NCBI RefSeq assembly: GCF_041320705.1
Contig: NZ_JBGGTQ010000002.1
Location: 1-64,000 of the forward strand
Reading direction: 5' to 3'
Source of the DNA: Kineococcus mangrovi
Lineage (GTDB): Bacteria > Actinomycetota > Actinomycetes > Actinomycetales > Kineococcaceae
DNA length: 64,000 nt
This document shows positions 24,652 to 34,512 of the stretch, piece after piece. Below the pieces are notes generated by a model. It did no database searches and was not told where the DNA came from. It saw only the letters and a program-made list of their open reading frames with translations. Position numbers and translations under genes: made by a program. Numbering within the stretch: the stretch's first letter is position 1; every line of letters starts with the position of its first letter.

Positions 24652-26862
24652 TCAGGCCCTGGGCAGATGGGGGATGAAGGCGCCGGCGAGCCGGCGAGCG
24701 GCGGTGGCGCTGAGGTGGCTGTGGTCGCGGTAGACGAGGGTGTCGCCCAGGACGACGGGACACCGGTCACCGGCGCACAGCCACGTCGTGGTGTCGATGT
24801 AACCGGCTCCGGAGTCCGCGACGGATCGGGCGACCGCATCTCGCCGCCGCGGGAAGGTGAGTGCGCGCTCCTCGTCCAGCGTGCACGACGCCGCGTCGTC
24901 GAGGTCCCGTGCGACGCACCGCGGCACGTCTTCGCCGGGGTAAGGCGTGTCTCCGACGACGAGCACCTCGGTTCCGGTCGAGCGCAGGGCGTCCACGGTC
25001 CGATCGACACCGCGTTCCCAGGCGGCCACGGCGTCCTCCTCACCGGTGCCCGCGTCCGAGGTGACGATCCCCGAGGTGACCACGAGGGCGGGCCGGAGGA
25101 CGCCCACCTCGGTCAGGACCGCGTCGCGCCAGGCGTAGCACTCGCGGTAGTCCCGACCGAGGTTGGGCTGCACGACGTCCAGGTCGTACACGGGACACCC
25201 GGACTTCGTGTAGCTCAAGACCTTGTACCCCTGCGCACGGCCGGCCTCGTCGAGCGCGGGCAGCCACTGGTACGCGTGGGAGTCCCCGACGAGGACGACG
25301 GTGCGTTCGCTGGTGACGTCGCCGAAGGCGCACGCAGCCGCCGGCTCGGGCCGCAGCACGGTCTGATCGAGCCCGACGTGGCAGCTGAGCCCGTCGACCG
25401 GGCTGCCCGCGGGCACGTCGTCCCCGGCGGTGTCCAGCCCGGGCGCGAGGTTGACGGGAACGGCACGTGCCTGCATCCCAGCACGCAGGGCGGGGTCGTC
25501 ACGCACCCCCGTCAGGACGGGCACCGCCGCGGCCGGCCCGTCGCCGCGGGTCGTCGTGGACGTGAGCGAGGCCAGTCCCGTCACGGCGAGCAGCAGGACC
25601 GACGCCGCGGCTCCGATCGCCAACGGACGCATCCGCCCTCGCAGGCGAGGAGTGCGTCGGAACGGGTCCTCGACCAGCACCAGCGTCCCCTGGGCCAGGA
25701 GGAGCGAGGCACCCGCGACGACCAGGCCGACCACCAGGGTCGGTTCGAGGTCGAGGACGGCCGGGACGAGCAGCAGCGCCGGCCAGTGCCACAGGTACCA
25801 GCCGTAGGAGACCCGTCCGACGCGCTGGGCCGCAGGACGGCCCAGGAGGTACCGCTCGACCCCGGTCGCACGGGAGGTCCCCGCCAGGATCACCAGGGCA
25901 GTGCCGAGGACCGGCACCAGCGCCGTGGGTCCGGGAAAGGGTGTGGCGTCGTCGTAGACCACGGCGGCGACCAGCACCAGGGTGAGCCCTGCGGCTGCGG
26001 CTGCGGACAGCAGCACGCGGATGGCGACCAGGTCGTCCAGGGCGCGGTGGCGACGCAGGAGTGCAGGACCGGCGAAGGCCACGAGGGCCCCGGCCCCCAG
26101 CTCCCAGACCCGCGCCGGGAGCAGGAAGTAGGCGTAGGGCTGGGCGACGTCGAGGAGACGGACGCAGCAGAGGAAGGAGGCCAGGCTCAGCACGGCGGTG
26201 CCGACGGCAGCCACGAGCCGCGGACGCGCTGTCCTGCGACCGAGAACCTCCTAGGCGCGGGTACCGAGCCACCACATCAGCAGCAGGGCCACCGGCCACA
26301 GGGCGTAGAACTGCTCCTCGACCCCCAGGGACCAGTAGTGCTGCAAGACGGAGGGTTCCGCGTTGGCCTGGTAGTCCACCCCCTGCAGGGCGAGCCTGAC
26401 GTTCATGGCGAACAGCGCCGTCCACCGGGCGTCGGTGAAGGTCGCACGCGTCTCCACGGGCGGCAGGAACGACCAGCTGACGACCACCGTGGTCATGAGC
26501 ACGACCAGCGACAGCGGCAGGAGGCGCCGGACACGACGGCCGTAGAACGCGGCCAGGGACAACCGGCCGGTGCGGGCCAGTTCCGCCAGGAGGTGGGTGG
26601 TGATCAGGTAGCCGGAGATGACGAAGAAGACGTCGACGCCGACGAAACCACCGGTCAGACCCGGCACCCCGGCGTGGTAGAGCACGACGAGGAGCACCGC
26701 GACTGCGCGCAGTCCCTCGATGTCGGGCCGGAACCGGCGTCCGGCACCGTGCGGGGCCACCGCAGGGTCGGTGGCCCCGGGCACACGGAGGACGGGCGCT
26801 GCGGCCGCGTCGCCGGGGCGACGCTCGGTCAGGTCAGCCACGGGGCGCCCGCTCCGCAGCAC
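24652..26862 (-). pseudogene. OafA-type acyltransferase with SGNH domain, interrupted by one in-frame TAG
   Basis: The first part (26862 to 26251) has the acyltransferase-3 start: FRPDIEGLRAVAVLLVVLYH, then GVDVFFVISGYLIT and HYWSLGVEEQFYALWPVALL. A TAG at 26251-26253 stops it. Reading through the same frame gives EVLGRRTARPRLVAAVG and a complete remainder: further helices, YGWYLWHWPALLL, then a periplasmic SGNH domain with VVLVGDSHAYQWLPAL and the C-terminal YRDHSHLSATAARRLAG. A TGG-to-TAG change would explain it. The enzyme would O-acetylate surface glycans. Start is either GTG 26862 or GTG 26841. As written the protein is truncated before the catalytic SGNH half; sequencing error or readthrough remain possible. 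Confidence 0.8.
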
Positions 26863-27191: not shown

Positions 27192-29102
27192 GTGGTCGCA
27201 CACCAGCGGATCGACCCGGTGACGCTGCGGGCCGAGAGCCGGCGCGGTCGACGGCGTCCGGCGGCGCTGCCGCGCTGGGTCCGGCAAGCGTGGGGCACCT
27301 GCTGGGCCGCCGGCCCCCGCGACCTCCTGGCGACGCTCGTCCCGCAGTTCGTGGCCACCGTGGTGCTGGCCGCGCTGCTGCCGCTGGTGCGCACCCTCCT
27401 GCACGTCCTCGTCGACGACGCCGGTGGCGACCGGCTGACCCGAGCCACCGTCCCGCTGTTCCTGCTGGCCGTCGTGGGCCTGGCCGCCGGGGTGGCGAGC
27501 GCGGTGCAGGGGCAACGGCAGAAGGTGCTCGGGGAGGTCGTGCAGCGGCACGTCTGGGGACGCTTCCTCGACGTCAGCGCGCGGGTGGACCTCACGCACT
27601 ACGACACCCCGGAGTTCTTCGAGCGGCTCGAACGGGTCCGGCTCAACGCGTTGACCCGCCCGCTGGCCGTCGTGCAGGGACTCGTGGGCGTCGCCGGCGG
27701 CGCGGTGGGCCTGGTCGCGGTCGTCGTGGCCGTGTGGGCGGTCGCTCCGATCGCCCTCGTCCTGCTGGTTCCCGTCCCGGTGCTGCTGCTCGTCGCCCGC
27801 CGCGGCGGGCGCCAGGAGTTCGAGTTCGCCGTGCAGCACGCCCCGGCGCTGCGGTTGCGCGCCTACCTGCAGAGCACCCTCACTGACCGCGCCACGGCCT
27901 CGGAGGTGCGCTCCTACGGGCTGGCGACGGACCTCCGGGGACGCTGGGACGCGGCGTCGGAGGAGTGGATCGGCGCGGTCCGGCGGCACGCACGGCGCCG
28001 GACCCGCACGATCCTGGCCGGGGAGCTGCTGACCGCCCTCGTCGCGGCGGGCCTGCTCGTCGCCGTCGTCGCCGCCATCGACGCCGGCCGGCTGTCGGTG
28101 GCCCAGGCCGGCGCTGTCGCGGTCGCGGTGCCGTTGCTGGCCAACCGGTCACGGCAGTTCGTCCGCGGCGTGGGAGCGATCCTGGAGTCGGGGTTGTTCC
28201 TCGACGACCTCACCGACTTCCACGCCACGCCGGTGGAACCGGAGGCGCACGACGGGCCCGCGGTGGGGCCGCTGGAGGTGCTGCGCGTTCAGGACGTCTC
28301 GTTCCGGTTCGCCTCCGGCACGCAGGCGCTGCGCGGGGTCGACCTCGACGTGCGCGCCGGGGAGGTCGTCGCGCTCGTCGGGGAGAACGGTTCGGGCAAG
28401 TCGACGCTGGCGAAGGTGGTCGCCGGGCTGCACCGCCCCAGCGGCGGGGTCGTCACCTGGAACGGGGTCGACGTCGCGGGCCTGCCCCCCGCGGCGGTGC
28501 GCCGGCAGGTCGCGGTGATGTTCCAGGACTTCGCGCACTGGCAGCTCCCGGCCGTGGACAACATCGCCTTCGGCGACGTCGAACGCGCCCACCGCGGCGA
28601 CGGCGACGTCGGCCCAGGCGTGGAGGGAGCAGCGCGCGAGGCCGGCGCGTGGGAGTTCCTGGCCGGGCTGCCTGCCGGGCTCGACACCCCGTTGTCGGCC
28701 GAGCGTCCCGGCGGGACGGAACTGTCCGGCGGTCAGTGGCAACGGGTCGCCCTGGCTCGCGCGCTGTTCCGCGGCAGCGGTCTGCTGATCCTCGACGAAC
28801 CCAGCGCCGCGCTCGACGCCCGCGCCGAGGCCGAACTGTTCACCACCGTGCGCACCGCGACCCGCGGCCGGGCGGTGCTGCTCATCACGCACCGGCTGGC
28901 GAACGTCCGTGACGCCGACCGCATCCACGTCCTGCGCGACGGTGTGGTCGACGACGTCGGGACGCACGAAGAACTCCTGCGCCGCGGCGGCCACTACGCT
29001 GCGCTGTACGACCTGCAGGCGCGCGCTTTCCGGACCAGCAGTGCCGCCGTCACGGGTGACGGGGAGACCCGGGCGGACCCGTCCGGGACGAGGGGGTGGT
29101 GA
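27192..29102 (+). CDS. Lasso-peptide ABC exporter (D protein)
   Basis: This 636-residue fused permease/ATPase exporter is expected to pump the mature peptide and give self-immunity. The N-terminal half has membrane helices (PQFVATVVLAALLPLVRTLL, GVAGGAVGLVAVVVAVWAVA, AGELLTALVAAGLLVAVVAA). The C-terminal ATPase has Walker A GENGSGKST (397-405), signature LSGGQWQR (from 511), Walker B LLILDEPSAALD and the H-loop LLITHRL. GTG 27192 follows GGAGG by 5 bases; an upstream open frame adds 48 unlikely residues. Its stop overlaps the B1 start (GTGGTGA), so D-B1-B2-C read as one operon. Confidence 0.88.
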   Translation: MVAHQRIDPVTLRAESRRGRRRPAALPRWVRQAWGTCWAAGPRDLLATLVPQFVATVVLAALLPLVRTLLHVLVDDAGGDRLTRATVPLFLLAVVGLAAGVASAVQGQRQKVLGEVVQRHVWGRFLDVSARVDLTHYDTPEFFERLERVRLNALTRPLAVVQGLVGVAGGAVGLVAVVVAVWAVAPIALVLLVPVPVLLLVARRGGRQEFEFAVQHAPALRLRAYLQSTLTDRATASEVRSYGLATDLRGRWDAASEEWIGAVRRHARRRTRTILAGELLTALVAAGLLVAVVAAIDAGRLSVAQAGAVAVAVPLLANRSRQFVRGVGAILESGLFLDDLTDFHATPVEPEAHDGPAVGPLEVLRVQDVSFRFASGTQALRGVDLDVRAGEVVALVGENGSGKSTLAKVVAGLHRPSGGVVTWNGVDVAGLPPAAVRRQVAVMFQDFAHWQLPAVDNIAFGDVERAHRGDGDVGPGVEGAAREAGAWEFLAGLPAGLDTPLSAERPGGTELSGGQWQRVALARALFRGSGLLILDEPSAALDARAEAELFTTVRTATRGRAVLLITHRLANVRDADRIHVLRDGVVDDVGTHEELLRRGGHYAALYDLQARAFRTSSAAVTGDGETRADPSGTRGW

Positions 29103-29368
29103 CGGTGACGTCCAGGACGGTCCAGACGCGCTCGGAACTCGTCTGGCAGGAGGTCGACGGCCAGGTCGTCGTGCTCGACCCGGGGTCCTCCACCTACCAC
29201 GGGGTCACCGGGGCCGGGACGACGTTGTGGCCCCTGCTGGTCCGCGGGACCACCCGTGACGAGCTCGTGGCCGAGCTCGTCGCGGTGTTCTCCCTCGACG
29301 AACCCGTCGCCCGGCAGGACGTCGCGGTGTTCCTGGCCGAACTGGCCCCGTTCCTGCGGGAGCCGTGA
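29099..29368 (+). CDS. Lasso-peptide B1 protein (PqqD-like RiPP recognition element)
   Basis: This 89-residue protein resembles PqqD. SELVWQEVDGQVVVLDPGSS forms the three-strand wing that binds leader peptides, followed by YHGVTGAGTTLWPLLVRG and a helical C-terminus (TRDELVAELVAVFSLDEP). In lasso systems B1 captures the leader of the precursor and presents it to the B2 protease. Start GTG 29099 overlaps the transporter stop; an in-frame GTG at 29096 is equivalent. Its end overlaps the start of B2 by 4 bases. Confidence 0.88.
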   Translation: MTVTSRTVQTRSELVWQEVDGQVVVLDPGSSTYHGVTGAGTTLWPLLVRGTTRDELVAELVAVFSLDEPVARQDVAVFLAELAPFLREP

Positions 29369-29790
29369 GGCGTCCGGTCCGGCCCCCGGCCCTGCGGGAC
29401 GTGCGCGGCCGGTTGCGCCGGTGGCGGCGGGTGCTGCGGCACCGCGGTCCGCAGGGGTCGCGAGCGCGACGGTGGGCCCGGGGTTCCCTCGCGGCGGTCC
29501 GCGCCGACCTGGCCCGGGAGGGCATGGCGGCCCGGTGCGCGGTTCCGGTCCCGGCACTGCCCGGGTGGTCGCGGGTCGTGGTGGAACGGGTGCTGCACGA
29601 GCAGGACGCCACGTGCCTGCAACGCTGCCTGGTCCTGCAGGCCTGGTTCGCCGCGCACGGGCGCGAGGCCGAGATCGTCGTCGCCGTCCCGACCGCGGCG
29701 CAGCCGGAGTTCACCGCGCACGCCTGGATCCGCGGGTACGACCGCGACGAGCACGACCGGTACCGCGAGCTGACGGTGCTGCGGCCGTGA
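29365..29790 (+). CDS. Lasso-peptide B2 leader protease (transglutaminase-like)
   Basis: This 141-residue protein has the lasso B2 signature: DATCLQRCLVLQAWFAAHG with catalytic Cys84 and EFTAHAWI with His119; the acid should follow in the next strand. B2 cuts the leader from the precursor in partnership with B1. The basic N-terminus (RGRLRRWRRVLRHRG) is normal for the family. Length is typical of stand-alone B2 proteins. It starts at GTG 29365 inside the B1 stop and overlaps the cyclase start by 4 bases. Confidence 0.9.
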   Translation: MRRPVRPPALRDVRGRLRRWRRVLRHRGPQGSRARRWARGSLAAVRADLAREGMAARCAVPVPALPGWSRVVVERVLHEQDATCLQRCLVLQAWFAAHGREAEIVVAVPTAAQPEFTAHAWIRGYDRDEHDRYRELTVLRP

Positions 29791-30953
29791 CCCTGCGGTT
29801 CACCGACCTCGAACTGCTGTGGACCGTCCCCTACGGGCGCGCCGCCGGGGTCGGCGACCTCACCGACCGCCCTGACGGGACCCTGCGGTCGGCGGTCGAG
29901 GAGGCGGTCCTGCCCGCCCTGCGCCGGCCCCCGTGCGTCGTGAGCTTCTCCGGCGGGCGGGACTCCTCCACCGTCCTGGCGGTGGCCGCCGCCCTGGCCC
30001 GTCGCGAGGGCCTGGCCCTGCCGGTCCCGGTGACCAACACGTTCCCCGCGGTCCCGGCCAGCCACGAGGGCCACTGGCAGGAACTCGTCGTCCGGCACCT
30101 GGACCTGCCGGAGTGGACGCGACTGCGGTTCACCGACGAGCTCGACGTCGCCGGACCGGTCGCTCGTGACACGTTGCACCGGCTCGGTGTGTGCGCGCCG
30201 TTCAACCTGCACTTCCACGCCCCGATCGCCGCGCTGGCCGCGGGGGGCTCGCTGCTGACGGGCGTCGGTGGCGACGAGCTGTTCTCCCCCGTCACCCGGC
30301 TCACCCCCTACCGGTTGCTGTCACGCACGTGGGCGGTGAACCGCCGCACGGCCCGGAACGCGGCCCTGGACCTCGCCCCCCGGCCCCTGCGGGTGCGGCG
30401 ATCGCTTCGACGGGTCGACGTGCGGTACGGGTGGATCCACCCGACGGCGCTGCGGAGGTTGCGCACCGACCTGGCGCGGCTGGATGCGACAGAGCCGTTG
30501 TCCTGGGAGCGCGCCGTGCGGCGGCGGGTCTGGCCCGGCCGCCGCCTCCAGATGCACCGGGAAGGCCTGGACCGCCTCGGGGCGCTGCACGACGTGGTGG
30601 TGGAGAACCCGTTCTGCGCACCGCGCGTCCTGGCGACGACGGCGACGGCGTGGGGGCGGACCGGTCCGCGCGGGCGCACCCGGGAGCTGCGGTCGCAGTT
30701 CGGGGACCTGCTGCCCGCCGACCTGGTCGAACGCAGCACGAAGTCGTCGTTCAACGGCGCGTTCTGGGCCGGCCCGGCCCGCAAGTGGGCTCGGGAGTGG
30801 ACCGGCGCCGGGTTGGGCACCGATCTGACCGGGCTCGTGGACGTCGAGGCCCTTCGCCGGGAATGGGCCGCGACCGAACCCGACCCGCACTCCTTCAGCC
30901 TGCTGCACACCGCCGTGCTCGCCGAGCTGGGGGGTTCAGCCCCGCAGGGCTGA
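29787..30953 (+). CDS. Lasso-peptide cyclase (C protein), asparagine-synthetase-like, compact form
   Basis: This 388-residue ATP-dependent enzyme adenylates the ring-closing Asp/Glu side chain and forms the macrolactam. The PP-loop is VVSFSGGRDSSTVL (51-64) and the second nucleotide-binding block is TGVGGDELFSP (158-168). Most lasso cyclases are near 600 residues with a degenerate glutamine-amidotransferase domain first; here only about 50 residues precede the PP-loop. GTG 29787 overlaps the B2 stop, so the short N-terminus is probably real rather than a start-call error. The 3' end overlaps the convergent kinase gene by 18 bp. Confidence 0.87.
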   Translation: MTLRFTDLELLWTVPYGRAAGVGDLTDRPDGTLRSAVEEAVLPALRRPPCVVSFSGGRDSSTVLAVAAALARREGLALPVPVTNTFPAVPASHEGHWQELVVRHLDLPEWTRLRFTDELDVAGPVARDTLHRLGVCAPFNLHFHAPIAALAAGGSLLTGVGGDELFSPVTRLTPYRLLSRTWAVNRRTARNAALDLAPRPLRVRRSLRRVDVRYGWIHPTALRRLRTDLARLDATEPLSWERAVRRRVWPGRRLQMHREGLDRLGALHDVVVENPFCAPRVLATTATAWGRTGPRGRTRELRSQFGDLLPADLVERSTKSSFNGAFWAGPARKWAREWTGAGLGTDLTGLVDVEALRREWAATEPDPHSFSLLHTAVLAELGGSAPQG

Positions 30954-31793
30954 GGCGAGTTCGGCGGCGCTGTCGTGGACCCGGTGCAGATCCCGGGGGC
31001 GGGACCAGCGCAGCGCGGGCAGGGCCGCCAGCCGCAGCAGGGCCGCGGGGTCGTGCTGGGGAACCCTCGCGGCCAGCGCCGCTTCGACGCCGTGCAACCG
31101 TTGCGCGAACGCCAGGTCGTCGAACTCGGAACGTTGCGCGGTGGTCCAGTCCAGGTGCACGAACCCGGCCAGGCGCAGCGTCGCGGACGGTTCCCCGACC
31201 ACGTTCGCGCGCCACCGCTCCCGACGACCGACGACCCCCAGGTCCTCCCCCACCCCGAGGCAGCGCGCCACCGGGGCGCGCAGGTCGACGCACCGCGGGC
31301 CGGGCAGGACCGCGTCCCCGGCGACGAGCACGACGTCGTCGCTGACGTGGGCGAAACCCTGCTGCAGCAACGACCACACGGCCGTGCTCTTGCCCGCCGC
31401 CCGCTCGCCCAGGAGCACGAACACGTCGTCCCCGAGCGAGACCGCCCCGGCGTGCAGCGCCGGCAGGCCACGCCACACGGCGGTGACGACGGCGGTCGAG
31501 GCGAGGTGGGGGTGCACGACCTCGCGGTCGGCCACCGGGGACGCGGTGGTGAGGTGGGTGGTCCTGGTCGCCCGGTCGATGCGCGCCACGCCCCCGTCGC
31601 CGAGGGGGTGGACGGCGTACCGGTCGGTGATCTCGTCCTCGCGCACCCCGGCCAGAGCTGCGGGCCGGTCGGTGACCTCGCGGGTGATCCGCCACGGCGT
31701 CTCGCCCCCGCGTGGTGGCCGCAGGAACTCCCGCCCTCCCACGAGATCGGGAAACGTCAGACCGTAGGCCGCCACGGGCTCGTGCACGGGCAC
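30936..31793 (-). CDS. HPr-kinase-like lasso-precursor kinase
   Basis: This 285-residue protein has a phosphoenolpyruvate-carboxykinase-like fold signature as in HPr kinases: GLPALHAGAVSLGDDVFVLL leading to the P-loop GERAAGKST (129-137), then HVSDDVVLVAGD (149-160) with the metal-binding acids. In paeninodin-type lasso clusters such kinases (PadeK, ThcoK) phosphorylate the C-terminal Ser of the precursor. The precursor here ends in Ser, which supports that role (inference). GTG 31793 is preceded by GAGGTGG. It is transcribed away from the precursor gene and converges on the cyclase. Confidence 0.82.
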   Translation of the reverse strand: MPVHEPVAAYGLTFPDLVGGREFLRPPRGGETPWRITREVTDRPAALAGVREDEITDRYAVHPLGDGGVARIDRATRTTHLTTASPVADREVVHPHLASTAVVTAVWRGLPALHAGAVSLGDDVFVLLGERAAGKSTAVWSLLQQGFAHVSDDVVLVAGDAVLPGPRCVDLRAPVARCLGVGEDLGVVGRRERWRANVVGEPSATLRLAGFVHLDWTTAQRSEFDDLAFAQRLHGVEAALAARVPQHDPAALLRLAALPALRWSRPRDLHRVHDSAAELASALRG

Positions 31794-31825
31794 ATCACAC
31801 CACCTCGCTCCATGATTCTTCGACG

Positions 31826-31849
31826 TTCGGTACGCATCGGGTGACCGAA
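31826..31849. promoter_or_regulatory. Inverted repeat in the kinase/precursor divergent spacer
   Basis: TTCGGT, 12 bases, ACCGAA: a perfect 6-bp dyad in the 106-bp spacer between the leftward kinase and the rightward precursor. TACAGT at 31856-31861 could be a -10 box for the precursor. Its spacing equals that of the dyad at 26924-26947, although the arm sequences differ. A role as operator is inference. Confidence 0.35.
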
Positions 31850-31899
31850 GGCGAATACAGTGGCGTCTTCTCGCCACCTTCCCGGATGGAGGCCACACC

Positions 31900-32037
31900 A
31901 TGACGGTGCGGTACGAAGCACCTCGCGTCACGGAGCTCGGTTCGTTCGCCGAACTCACCCTGCTCACGCCGAAGGACATCGGCGTCCCGAGCGACGGCTT
32001 CAGCTACCAGGGTCAGTCGCTCATCGTCGCCTCCTGA
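31900..32037 (+). CDS. Lasso-peptide precursor (A protein), 45 residues
   Basis: This short gene has a strong ribosome-binding site (GGAGG at 31888-31892, 7 bases before ATG 31900). The leader shows the actinobacterial lasso motif Y-x-x-P-x-(L/V)-x-x-x-G-x-F as Y5, P8, V10, G14, F16. Thr23 matches the conserved Thr at position -2, which puts the cut after Pro24. The core would then be residues 25-45: ring KDIGVPSD closed between Lys1 and Asp8, and tail GFSYQGQSLIVAS ending in Ser. B1, B2, C, D, kinase and nucleotidyltransferase genes surround it. Lys as ring residue 1 is unusual, as Gly is usual. My hand-calculated neutral monoisotopic mass for the cyclised core is about 2149.07, plus 79.97 per phosphate. 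Confidence 0.88.
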   Translation: MTVRYEAPRVTELGSFAELTLLTPKDIGVPSDGFSYQGQSLIVAS

Positions 32038-32044
32038 GACGGCC

Positions 32045-32084
32045 GGCCGGTGTCCGCGCTCCTGCACCTGCGGGGACACCGGCC
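32045..32084 (+). terminator. Hairpin just after the precursor gene
   Basis: GGCCGGTGTCC (32045-32055), an 18-base loop, then GGACACCGGCC (32074-32084): an 11-bp perfect stem starting 7 bases after the precursor stop. It has no T-run. It probably acts as a partial terminator or an RNA-stabilising stem that lets the precursor be made in excess over the downstream nucleotidyltransferase (inference). Confidence 0.55.
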
Positions 32085-32118
32085 GCGTCGCGGCGTTCAC
32101 CCACCCGAACCGCGGATC

Positions 32119-33270
32119 GTGCGCACCGTCGCTCTCGATCGCCTGTCCCGTCCCCCCGCGGACCGCCGCCGGGCCGGGCTCGCCCTGCTGCACCTCGTGC
32201 GCTGCGCCCACCAGAACCGGCAGGCGACGGACCTGGAGGCCGGGTGGGTGCTGGCCCAGGACCCTGCGCTGCTGAGCCGGCTCCTCGCCGCCCACCACGT
32301 GGGTCCGCTCGTCCACGACGTGTTGGTGGCCACCCCCTCCCTGAGCGGACTGACCGCGCTGACCGCGCCGCTGCACGCGGCCCAGCTGCGCCGGACCCTG
32401 GCGGCCCGCCCCGACCTGGAACTGGTCTGCCACTGCCTGCAGCGTCTGCGGTGGACCGTCGTCAAGGGTGTCGCCGCCGCGTCCCTGTACTCCCGCCCGA
32501 CCGCCCGCGAGTGGCACGACGTCGACGTGCTCGTGCACGGCGAGGACCTGCCCCGCGCCCTGGAGGCCCTGGAGACCGGGGGCGCCACGGTGATCGCCCC
32601 GGACTGGCGCCGCACCGCCGACCTGGCGCTGGGTGAGGTCGGTCTCCGCCTGCCGCACGGCACCGTGCTGGACCTGCACTGGCACCTCCTGAACCTCGCC
32701 GAGCGGCGACACGCCTTCAGCTACGACGTCCGGACCGTCCTGCGGCGACGGCGCCCCCGCCGGGTCCTGGGACTCGACGTGCCGGTCCCGCACCCGGTCG
32801 ACGAGGCCCACCACCTGGCCGTGCACGCGACGCTCAGCGGCGGGTGGCGCCTCGGGTGGAGCTACGACGTGGCGCAGGCCGCCGACCGGCTGGAGGACTG
32901 GGACGGACTGGTCGAGCTCGCCCGGGAGGCCGGGACCGGCCTGGTCGTGGGACTGGCCCTGCAGCGGGCCAGGGACCTGCTCGGGGCGCGCGTGCCCGCC
33001 GACGTGCTGCGGGACCTGCACCGGCACGGACGGGGCTGGTCCCGGGTGGGCCGAGCCGTGACGACCTGGGTCCCTCCGGAGTCCCTCGACGGTCCCGACT
33101 GGCTGACCACCCGCTGCTACGCGGGTGCCCGCGGAACCACCGTGCGCAGCCTGCGCCGGTTCCTGGTCCGGGCCCGGGCCGCCGTGCAGACGACTCCTCC
33201 GGCGGCACCCGACCTGCGGGCCCGACAGGACTGGTTCGCGCTCGCCGCGGCGGAGACGCAGGCGCACTAA
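32119..33270 (+). CDS. Nucleotidyltransferase-family protein of the lasso cluster
   Basis: This protein of about 383 residues has the NTP_transf_5-type core: WTVVKGVAAASLYSRPTARE followed by WHDVDVLVHGEDLPRALEAL, with the paired acidic D-V-D of nucleotidyltransferases, then GTVLDLHWHLLNLAERR. Genes of this family occur in kinase-type lasso clusters; their chemistry is not settled. They may add a nucleotide or further group to the peptide. The open frame reaches GTG 32050, inside the hairpin after the precursor; GTG 32119 is a more natural start but has only a weak ribosome-binding site. It ends 190 bp before the exported paralogue at 33460. Confidence 0.75.
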   Translation: MRTVALDRLSRPPADRRRAGLALLHLVRCAHQNRQATDLEAGWVLAQDPALLSRLLAAHHVGPLVHDVLVATPSLSGLTALTAPLHAAQLRRTLAARPDLELVCHCLQRLRWTVVKGVAAASLYSRPTAREWHDVDVLVHGEDLPRALEALETGGATVIAPDWRRTADLALGEVGLRLPHGTVLDLHWHLLNLAERRHAFSYDVRTVLRRRRPRRVLGLDVPVPHPVDEAHHLAVHATLSGGWRLGWSYDVAQAADRLEDWDGLVELAREAGTGLVVGLALQRARDLLGARVPADVLRDLHRHGRGWSRVGRAVTTWVPPESLDGPDWLTTRCYAGARGTTVRSLRRFLVRARAAVQTTPPAAPDLRARQDWFALAAAETQAH

Positions 33271-33459: not shown

Positions 33460-34512
33460 ATGTTGCGCCGCCGACTCTCCGCCGCTCTCCTGCCTGCCGC
33501 TCTGGCCCTCACCGTGGGGACCGCCACACCTGCCATCGCGGCGGACAGCCGCAGCGTTACAGCAGCCTCGACGACCACGGCGACGAACTCGGTCACGATG
33601 CCCGCCGGCAGCCCCTTCGGCACCGCCTCCGCCTGGCGGCAGGACATCCGCAAGGCCCCCCTGGACCCCCGCTCGGCAGCGATGGTCAAGAACGTCGCCG
33701 CGCAGACCGCCAAGCTCTACGGCGGTGTCGCCGCCTTCAACGTCACGAAGTACAACACCAGCTTCTACACCGTCCCCGCCGGGCAGAAGCGCATCGACCT
33801 GAAGTGGAACGACTGCCAGGGCAAGGGCAAGACCCCCGCCGGCTTGTTCGGCACCGGCGGGCAGTTCGTCCAGGTGCCGATCCCGGCCGACGCCGTCCCC
33901 GCGTCCGGGACCGACGGCCAGCTCACGGTCTTCTCCCCCAGCACCGACCAGCTGTGGGAGTTCTGGAAGGCCAAGAAGGTCAAGGGCACGTGGCAGGCGT
34001 GCTGGGGTGGGCGGATCGACCAGGTCTCCACCAACCGCGGCGGGTTCGGCGGCACCTTCGGCGCCAGCGCCAGCGGCCTGGCCCTGTCCGGCGGCACCAT
34101 CGGCATCGAGGACGTCAAGTCCGGTTCCATCCAGCACGCCGTCGCCCTGCACCTGCCCAAGCCCGGTCGTGGCCACAGCTACCCCGCCACCCGCGGCGAC
34201 GGCTGGGACACCTCCGCCGCCGCCGTCCCCGAGGGCACCCGGCTGCGTCTGGACCCGTCGGTCGACGTCGACGGGCTGAACCTGCACCCGATCGCGAAGA
34301 TGGTCGCCAAGGCCGCGCAGAAGTACGGGTTCATCGTCACCGACGCCTCCGGCTGCACCTCGGTCGTCGCCGAGAGCCCCGCCGCCTCGATCGCCCGCAC
34401 CGGGACCGACCCGTGGCCGTCGCTGATGGGCGGCACCCCGCAGTACTCGATCATGGCGAACTTCCCGTGGGGGAAGCTGCAGGCGCTGCCGAAGAACCAC
34501 GGCAAGCCCTGA
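33460..34512 (+). CDS. Exported protein of the LWEFWKA family, member 1
   Basis: This 350-residue protein has a Sec-type signal peptide (LRRRLSAALLPAALALTVGT to about AIAA). I do not recognise the family by name. It shares its whole mature length with the products at 45528, 47017 and 48295. Blocks in order: SAWRQDI, VAAFNV, SFYTV, VPIPADAVPASGTDGQL, STDQLWEFWKAKKVKGTWQA then CWGGRIDQVS, EGTRLRLDPSVDVDGLNL, AQKYGFIVTD and FPWGKLQALPKNHGKP. It differs from the others by SYPATRGDG where they have SWPAQRSDG. ATG 33460 is preceded by GAGGA. Conserved acids and aromatics would suit a carbohydrate-active or carbohydrate-binding protein (inference). Confidence 0.8.
   Translation: MLRRRLSAALLPAALALTVGTATPAIAADSRSVTAASTTTATNSVTMPAGSPFGTASAWRQDIRKAPLDPRSAAMVKNVAAQTAKLYGGVAAFNVTKYNTSFYTVPAGQKRIDLKWNDCQGKGKTPAGLFGTGGQFVQVPIPADAVPASGTDGQLTVFSPSTDQLWEFWKAKKVKGTWQACWGGRIDQVSTNRGGFGGTFGASASGLALSGGTIGIEDVKSGSIQHAVALHLPKPGRGHSYPATRGDGWDTSAAAVPEGTRLRLDPSVDVDGLNLHPIAKMVAKAAQKYGFIVTDASGCTSVVAESPAASIARTGTDPWPSLMGGTPQYSIMANFPWGKLQALPKNHGKP

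Follow-up and report, generated by a model that had tools for sequence, protein, structure and literature searches.

How is a ring closed in a peptide whose biosynthetic genes all have lasso-type counterparts and whose precursor carries no acidic residue where the ring should end? This question is raised by a complete set of seven lasso-type genes at 27192–33270 of the window, by which we mean the whole 64,000-nucleotide stretch of Kineococcus mangrovi DNA analyzed here (contig NZ_JBGGTQ010000002.1, positions 1 to 64,000). In our best reading, these genes form a cluster for a ribosomally synthesized and post-translationally modified peptide (RiPP) of the lasso family, within a distinct branch that we call Lys-type. 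The ring of the product probably ends at Asp32 of the precursor and starts at or beside Lys25; that the ε-amine of the Lys25 side chain is the group joined to Asp32 is a tentative proposal, to which we give somewhat less than an even chance. The genes and sites on which the argument draws are as follows.

27192–29102, plus strand: D, ABC exporter (PF00005, 1.3e-29); GTG start at 27192 likely, in a frame open from 27048
29099–29368, plus strand: B1, PqqD-like predicted leader-binding protein (RiPP recognition element, RRE; PF05402, 1.9e-12); GTGA overlap with D
29365–29790, plus strand: B2, transglutaminase-like leader peptidase (PF13471, 1.7e-7; NF033537, 9.7e-6, below that model's cut-off)
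29787–30953, plus strand: C, AsnB-like cyclase of 388 amino acids, synthetase domain only (PF00733, 7.1e-16)
29949–29969, plus strand: PP-loop motif SGGRDSS, C residues 55–61, each position conserved in 95% or more of the 88 C proteins aligned
30264–30266, plus strand: Val160 of C (LTG-V-GGDE), the site of a Glu in other C proteins by the C alignment
30936–31793, minus strand: K, HPr-kinase/PEPCK-fold kinase (weak sequence matches; predicted fold); GTG start at 31793 likely
31900–32037, plus strand: A, precursor of 45 codons with a C-terminal Ser (NF033521 leader, 6.5e-8)
31912–31959, plus strand: leader motif YEAPRVTELGSFAELT, residues 5–20 by sequence; Y5, P8, G14, and T20 invariant in alignment A1 (n=7)
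31972–31974, plus strand: Lys25, proposed ring amine, from the Lys-x5/6-Asp pattern of branch precursors
31993–31995, plus strand: Asp32, proposed ring carboxylate, invariant in alignment A1 (n=7)
32050–33270, plus strand: NTase, PF14907 nucleotidyltransferase-like protein (PF14907, 2.6e-27)

D, B1, B2, and C are joined by 4-bp GTGA overlaps at 29099, 29365, and 29787; K is convergent with C and overlaps its end by 18 bp, and the NTase gene starts 12 bp past the precursor stop. An earlier note on this DNA had listed the same exporter, B1, B2, C, kinase-like protein, 45-codon precursor, and nucleotidyltransferase, which Pfam and NCBIfam matches bear out, together with the three overlapping junctions, all of which are real. 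The note is right on the family, as family matches and conserved motifs support lasso-family machinery accompanied by a kinase and a PF14907 protein. Its account of the ring is probably incorrect or incomplete: the lasso family and the terminal Ser of its phosphorylated lasso peptide stand, and the textbook ring does not. The note also passes over the minus-strand position of K, the shortness of C, and the lack of a core 7–9 acid in the precursor.

The difficulty lies in the precursor, which reads MTVRYEAPRVTELGSFAELT-LLTPKDIGVPSDGFSYQGQSLIVAS when split with Thr20 as the penultimate leader residue. It contains the lasso leader motif YxxPxLxxxGxFxxxT and scores 32.2 bits against NF033521, for which the cut-off is 19. 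In the available portion of PMC10368454, Thr(-2) is the usual leader rule and Ile(-2) an exception, and the part of PMC12670498 at hand likewise takes Thr(-2) as usual; lasso rings use the N-terminal amine as a rule, with 8–9 residues optimal and 7 known, according to the accessible part of PMC12427821. If Thr20 is Thr(-2), Asp occurs only at core positions 5 and 11, with no Asp or Glu at 7–9, and a textbook N-terminal ring therefore cannot form. The usual structure prediction for this peptide probably fails.

The Lys–Asp pattern in related loci

The window's own genome (23 contigs) contains a single C of its kind. Within the genus, C is present in three of ten other genomes, and the precursor in five of eleven when the window's own genome is included; the exporter is 49.5–50.1% identical to its matches in three same-genus clusters (tblastn). 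G001, G005, and G008, of the same genus, share the order D-B1-B2-C-K(antisense)-A-A-NTase with two precursors apiece, and this recurrence of gene set and precursor is more than chance would give. The earlier note had staked its claim beforehand on precursor and B1/B2/C occurring together in relatives, and they do. A precursor profile run against 396 genomes of the phylum matched the window alone, after which relatives were sought through C instead. A C search of plasmids gave no match; the C survey comprised the best 80 of at least 118 confirmed loci, taken from named genomes. Applying the leader pattern to these 80 loci and to seven same-genus or same-order loci yielded 101 precursors, or 102 with that of the window, a set in which L012 and L036 are one locus and a few doubtful small frames are admitted by the pattern (e.g. 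L025 and one in L096, where C is cut short as well).

Under Thr(-2), 72 of the 102 precursors have Asp or Glu at core 7–9 and 30 do not. Lys-x5-Asp or Lys-x6-Asp occurs in 25 of the 30 without a core 7–9 acid (shuffle mean 4.4, maximum 11 of 2000) and in 10 of the 72 with one. The pattern follows a branch of the cyclase. Maximum-likelihood analysis of 88 C proteins placed the window in a branch of 23 (support 91/68) that also contains its genus relatives and loci from Solirubrobacterales, Acidimicrobiaceae, Geodermatophilaceae, Nocardioides, and Rhodococcus, 12 of the 23 sharing with the window the order B1-B2-C plus antisense K. Lys-x5-Asp or Lys-x6-Asp is present in all 20 branch loci whose precursor the regex found; of the remaining three, L050 and L086 lie where contigs end early, and L024 has a precursor (leader ...HVET) that was found through the Lys–Asp pattern itself and is not an independent case. 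Counting by precursor, 27 of 27 from the branch, including held-out L136, fit Lys-x5/6-Asp (shuffle mean 4.5, maximum 12 of 5000); both G004 precursors were found by the precursor profile and are likewise not independent, and the second precursor of L094, counted among the 27, adjoins a different C gene. The window has both marks of the branch, with Lys25–Asp32 in its precursor and Val160, a non-Glu residue, in its C.

We then measured spacing in 30 Lys-type precursors, which were selected for the pattern. The distance from the leader Thr to Lys ranges from 4 to 19 and that from Thr to Asp from 10 to 25, whereas the distance from Lys to Asp is 6 (n=19) or 7 (n=11); the ring segment thus looks measured from the lysine and not from the leader. 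Gly directly follows the Asp in 19 of these 30, and a terminal Ser, Ser45 in the window, is present in 19 of 30 as well (57/72 for the canonical-type precursors). The residue ahead of Lys is variable (N 9, G 5, D 4, H 4, P 3, F 2, S 2, T 1), the Pro cases being the window, L042, and G004. Leu or Gln follows the leader Thr in 27 of the 30 and in 52 of 65 precursors from loci whose C has the Glu discussed below (Glu-type loci), so cleavage there stays likely.

Loci from further genome searches, made after the Lys–Asp rule had been formed, served as a held-out set. Two new C genes had a non-Glu motif like that of the branch and came with a precursor: L136 (C motif LSGVFGDE; precursor T-LDVDKSYHPKSDG) and L161 (C motif TGSGGD; precursor Lys14-x5-Asp20). 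Both fit the rule. All 13 held-out Glu-type loci with a precursor, copies excluded, have Asp or Glu at core 8/9, and L145 among them has the Lys pattern in addition. Copies of earlier loci were not counted (L134, L142, L144, L146, L147, L150, L154, L155, L164), the C motif of L153 was not readable, no precursor was found in L152, and L162 gave neither motif nor precursor. L107/L133 (G208) has a C-like gene with an in-frame TAG and the motifs SGGVDSS...TGYGGD, and no precursor was found there.

Two further precursor types were seen. L009, L010, L011, and L100, of the same genus, have two precursors, one ending in Ser and the other in a Cys-rich extension (e.g. ...YTVSCGCETGIN) that comes after the same Lys–Asp motif. 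In L072 and L081 (Promicromonosporaceae), C-K-Y-G-x-G-A-D-N places Lys-x5-Asp outside the Lys branch, beside a Glu-type C.

The cyclase of the Lys-type branch

An N-terminal glutaminase-like part of C is a defining feature of lasso peptide clusters, as implied by full-length models of 561–668 positions. This part was not found in the 388-residue C of the window: a Pfam scan matched PF00733 alone, even across all 614 codons of the open frame, and the DNA upstream of C encodes B2 in a different frame. Such shortness is common, with fewer than 130 in-frame codons ahead of the match in 70 of 88 related C genes (among them L018, which sits at a contig end), and a Pfam scan of the remaining 18, run over their full open frames, found no glutaminase domain. 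The AlphaFold2 (AF2) model of C has a predicted local distance difference test score (pLDDT) of 94.6 and resembles asparagine synthetase B, beta-lactam synthetase, and carbapenam synthetase. In addition to the PP-loop, Lys319 and other residues stay conserved across the 88 aligned C proteins.

The branch differs at C position 160, which lies within the TGxGGD motif (TGEGGDE in the main group). Glu occupies this position in 55 of 55 main-group proteins and in 0 of 23 from the window's branch, which have Ile (10), Phe (9), Ala (2), Val (1), or Ser (1); it is also found in 0 of 10 among nine sister C proteins plus L051. By a profile match with alignment A4 (27 of the 88 C proteins), position 160 aligns with Glu348 of Escherichia coli asparagine synthetase B (1ct9). 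The narrower profile A2 found no PDB relative at 1e-3; alignment A3 holds 17 of the 23 branch proteins, and L037, which has a stop inside the given range, was excluded from A3 and A4. The place equivalent to Glu348 takes part in amine activation across the superfamily and is Tyr348 in beta-lactam synthetase. Seven columns of C are diagnostic of the branch, by a filter similar to that used for the other proteins, in which such columns number 34/200 (kinase), 3/64 (B2), 1/67 (B1), and 0/254 (PF14907 protein). Among the 53 Glu-type loci with a precursor, 45 have Asp or Glu at core 8/9, and the non-Glu loci with a precursor have the Lys pattern in 21 of 30 and a core 8/9 acid in 12 of 30.

Two groups of C genes stand somewhat apart. 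L046, L049, L053, L057, and L064 have a sister C with an altered TG-x-x-GD and adjoining precursors whose cores have only ~11–19 residues, few for a tailed lasso (e.g. T-ETIVIVAQGETS). Short C clusters also occur in L051, on a contig binned as Gemmatimonadota, and in L080 (Acidobacteriota), which would mean inter-phylum transfer or mis-binning.

Proposed ring and its alternatives

By a count of N, CA, C, and side-chain atoms, a ring between the ε-amine of Lys25 and Asp32 has 29 atoms, the size of a Gly1–Glu9 lasso ring. Across the branch, ε-amine rings would have 26 atoms for Lys-x5-Asp and 29 for Lys-x6-Asp, matching Gly1–Glu8 and Gly1–Glu9 rings, by a count that runs above the atom numbers given for an 8-residue ring in the available portion of PMC12427821. 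Rings from an α-amine would have 22 and 25 atoms if started at Lys and 25 and 28 if started at the preceding residue; ring size alone does not choose the amine. We prefer the ε-amine because the residue before Lys is variable, being Pro in three precursors, because Leu or Gln is kept after the leader Thr, and because the residue at C160 is mostly hydrophobic; such a residue could pack against the lysine chain. It is conceivable, with a likelihood that we put a little short of even, that a widespread branch of AsnB-like RiPP cyclases closes its rings between a Lys side chain and an Asp and not on an α-amine, giving lasso-sized rings with free N- and C-terminal tails. In equally provisional terms, the change of enzyme in this branch would be marked by the missing Glu, the counterpart of Glu348 in asparagine synthetase B.

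We infer the following course. B1 would bind the leader, and K may phosphorylate the C-terminal Ser45. B2 would cut the leader off, probably after Leu21 (two residues counted from the start of Thr20), and C, lacking the glutaminase part, would adenylate Asp32 and then join it to the side-chain ε-amine of Lys25. On the N-terminal side of the ring the product would keep a short free tail (LTP), and its C-terminal tail may be threaded; a sugar may be placed on the phosphate by the PF14907 protein, and D would export the product.

Several points weigh against a lysine-closed ring. The literature searched, which was mostly open-access, yielded no lasso peptide whose ring uses a Lys side chain. The branch has moderate support, and the Lys motif had already been noticed when its test was made. 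Of the two patterns used in the survey, one admitted only Glu, Ile, or Val at C160, so the loci were not sampled blind to that residue. The link between Glu loss and Lys is not a strict one, since the nine sister proteins and held-out L132 lack Glu and some of them have ordinary-looking precursors: L132 has Gln at C160 yet a precursor of Gly1–Asp9 type, and the cores at several sister loci are ordinary-looking or very short. Conversely, the Lys pattern appears in 8 of 53 Glu-type loci with a precursor, and 6 of the 30 Lys-type precursors have Asp or Glu at core 8 or 9. Finally, loss of Glu and gain of Lys may be a single ancestral event in a branch that shares ancestry.

The alternative that fares best retains an N-terminal lasso ring and shifts the cleavage, such that B2 would cut before Lys25 to give a Lys1–Asp8 ring, with Lys as a cleavage or pocket residue. 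Lys-x5/6-Asp would then produce 7- and 8-residue rings, inside the range described in the accessible part of PMC12427821, exceptions to Thr(-2) exist (Ile(-2) in the available portion of PMC10368454), and the invariant Lys would be accounted for if B2 reads it. However, the cut would have to fall 3–18 residues past the leader Thr, where the rule is one residue past, few B2 columns are branch-specific, and Lys at position 1 does not appear in those parts of the literature at hand; we consider this explanation unlikely, although a serious competitor of the ε-amine ring. Less likely again is that Lys–Asp is a recognition or non-covalent feature, with C making some other bond or the branch having lost a lasso-like product. 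The absent Glu could indeed mean changed or lost chemistry, but the PP-loop, Lys319, and other C residues are still conserved, the branch is diverse, and about half of its loci share one gene order.

An N-terminal ring started by the residue before Lys (Pro1-Lys2...Asp9) would by construction have 8 or 9 residues, the sizes most common among lasso rings. Position 1 would then be Pro in three cases and Asn, Gly, Asp, His, Phe, Ser, or Thr in the rest, a poor fit for a nucleophile, position 2 would be an invariant Lys, and a simple ring start set by Thr(-2) sits poorly with the variable leader spacing; we regard this ring as improbable. A textbook paeninodin-like lasso, with Thr(-2) cleavage, a ring on the α-amine of Leu22, and a phospho-Ser, is the least credible reading and was rejected on ring position, as leader, B1, B2, kinase fold, PF14907 protein, and terminal Ser are all present but the only Asp residues fall at core 5 or 11, unlike the core 8/9 acids of most Glu-type loci. 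An aspartimide route was also considered for the Asp-Gly motif and set aside, no methyltransferase family being found among the cluster proteins; none was sought elsewhere.

If the branch does close its ring through lysine, core predictions for the whole actinobacterial branch are wrong, and a ring chemistry that needs no free N-terminus would open lasso-like scaffolds with two free ends. The conservative rival, in which Lys sets the cleavage site, likewise breaks the Thr(-2) rule, and the Lys–Asp rule is a simple, directly testable prediction under either reading.

Accessory enzymes, flanking genes, and known systems

The remaining enzymes retain their characteristic residues. B1 matches TbiB1 (5v1u), a solved lasso leader-binding protein, at 7.4e-9. 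The Cys and His of B2 are kept in 77 of 77 aligned B2 proteins, window included, and the DxD of the PF14907 protein in 63 of 63 aligned relatives. For K, the AF2 model (pLDDT 93.3) matched PEPCK structures first and HPr kinases lower, and GKS and DD are kept in 19 of 19 kinases of the window's branch, with a His conserved too. In a quick kinase tree, which gave long-branch warnings for L021, L084, L051, and L085, the branch and sister kinases, with L062, were deeply split from 50 others (local support 100); this split and the many diagnostic columns point to a kinase of separate lineage. Judging from sequence, the substrate of the branch kinase may differ from that in other clusters, and phosphorylation of the C-terminal Ser and addition of a sugar are both plausible in this cluster.

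Promoter and terminator scans, covering one promoter type only, found nothing. An acyltransferase-3 type gene at 24652–26862 on the minus strand (PF01757 on the first piece) has one in-frame stop and looks broken, with open pieces at 26251–26862 and 24652–26214. Adjoining the cluster on the other side, 33460–34512 on the plus strand encodes a 350-amino-acid protein with a signal-like N-terminus and no Pfam match at 0.1 or NCBIfam match at 1.

Among known peptides, graspetides embody a similar product idea, a side-chain macrolactam, and are made by ATP-grasp ligases; a Pfam scan of the cluster genes found no such ligase. The Lys-type variant was not found described in the literature searched, most subscription papers lying outside its scope. 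Paeninodin-type clusters have an exporter and a split B1/B2, as in the window, and the paeninodin clusters (PadeA/K/C/B1/B2/D) likewise combine an HPr-kinase homologue with a precursor ending in Ser. Compared by description only, the window differs in its antisense kinase, its C without a glutaminase-like domain, and the absence of an Asp or Glu at core 7–9. The label of a paeninodin-type cluster, proposed in the earlier note, is therefore not supported in detail: a canonical N-terminal ring cannot be drawn on the precursor, and the kinase falls in a deep branch apart from most other actinobacterial cluster kinases found, in a comparison outside which the paeninodin kinase lies. According to the available portion of PMC8498205, the HPr-kinase homologue beside paeninodin-type lasso genes phosphorylates the terminal Ser of the precursor, and in pseudomycoidin the phosphorylated peptide receives one or two hexoses in vivo from the nucleotidyltransferase. 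The pseudomycoidin cluster has a kinase and a nucleotidyltransferase together, as does the window; precursor type and gene order differ, and the PF14907 protein is likened to its counterpart by description, not by sequence. Actinobacterial kinase clusters with a short Glu-type C, for example L020 and L031, share with the window a short C, B1, B2, a kinase, and the leader, as well as PF14907 in L031. They differ from it in the order, B1-A-C-B2-K on one strand in these two, and in having the Glu of TGEGGDE, an Asp at core 8/9, and a kinase of the other branch.

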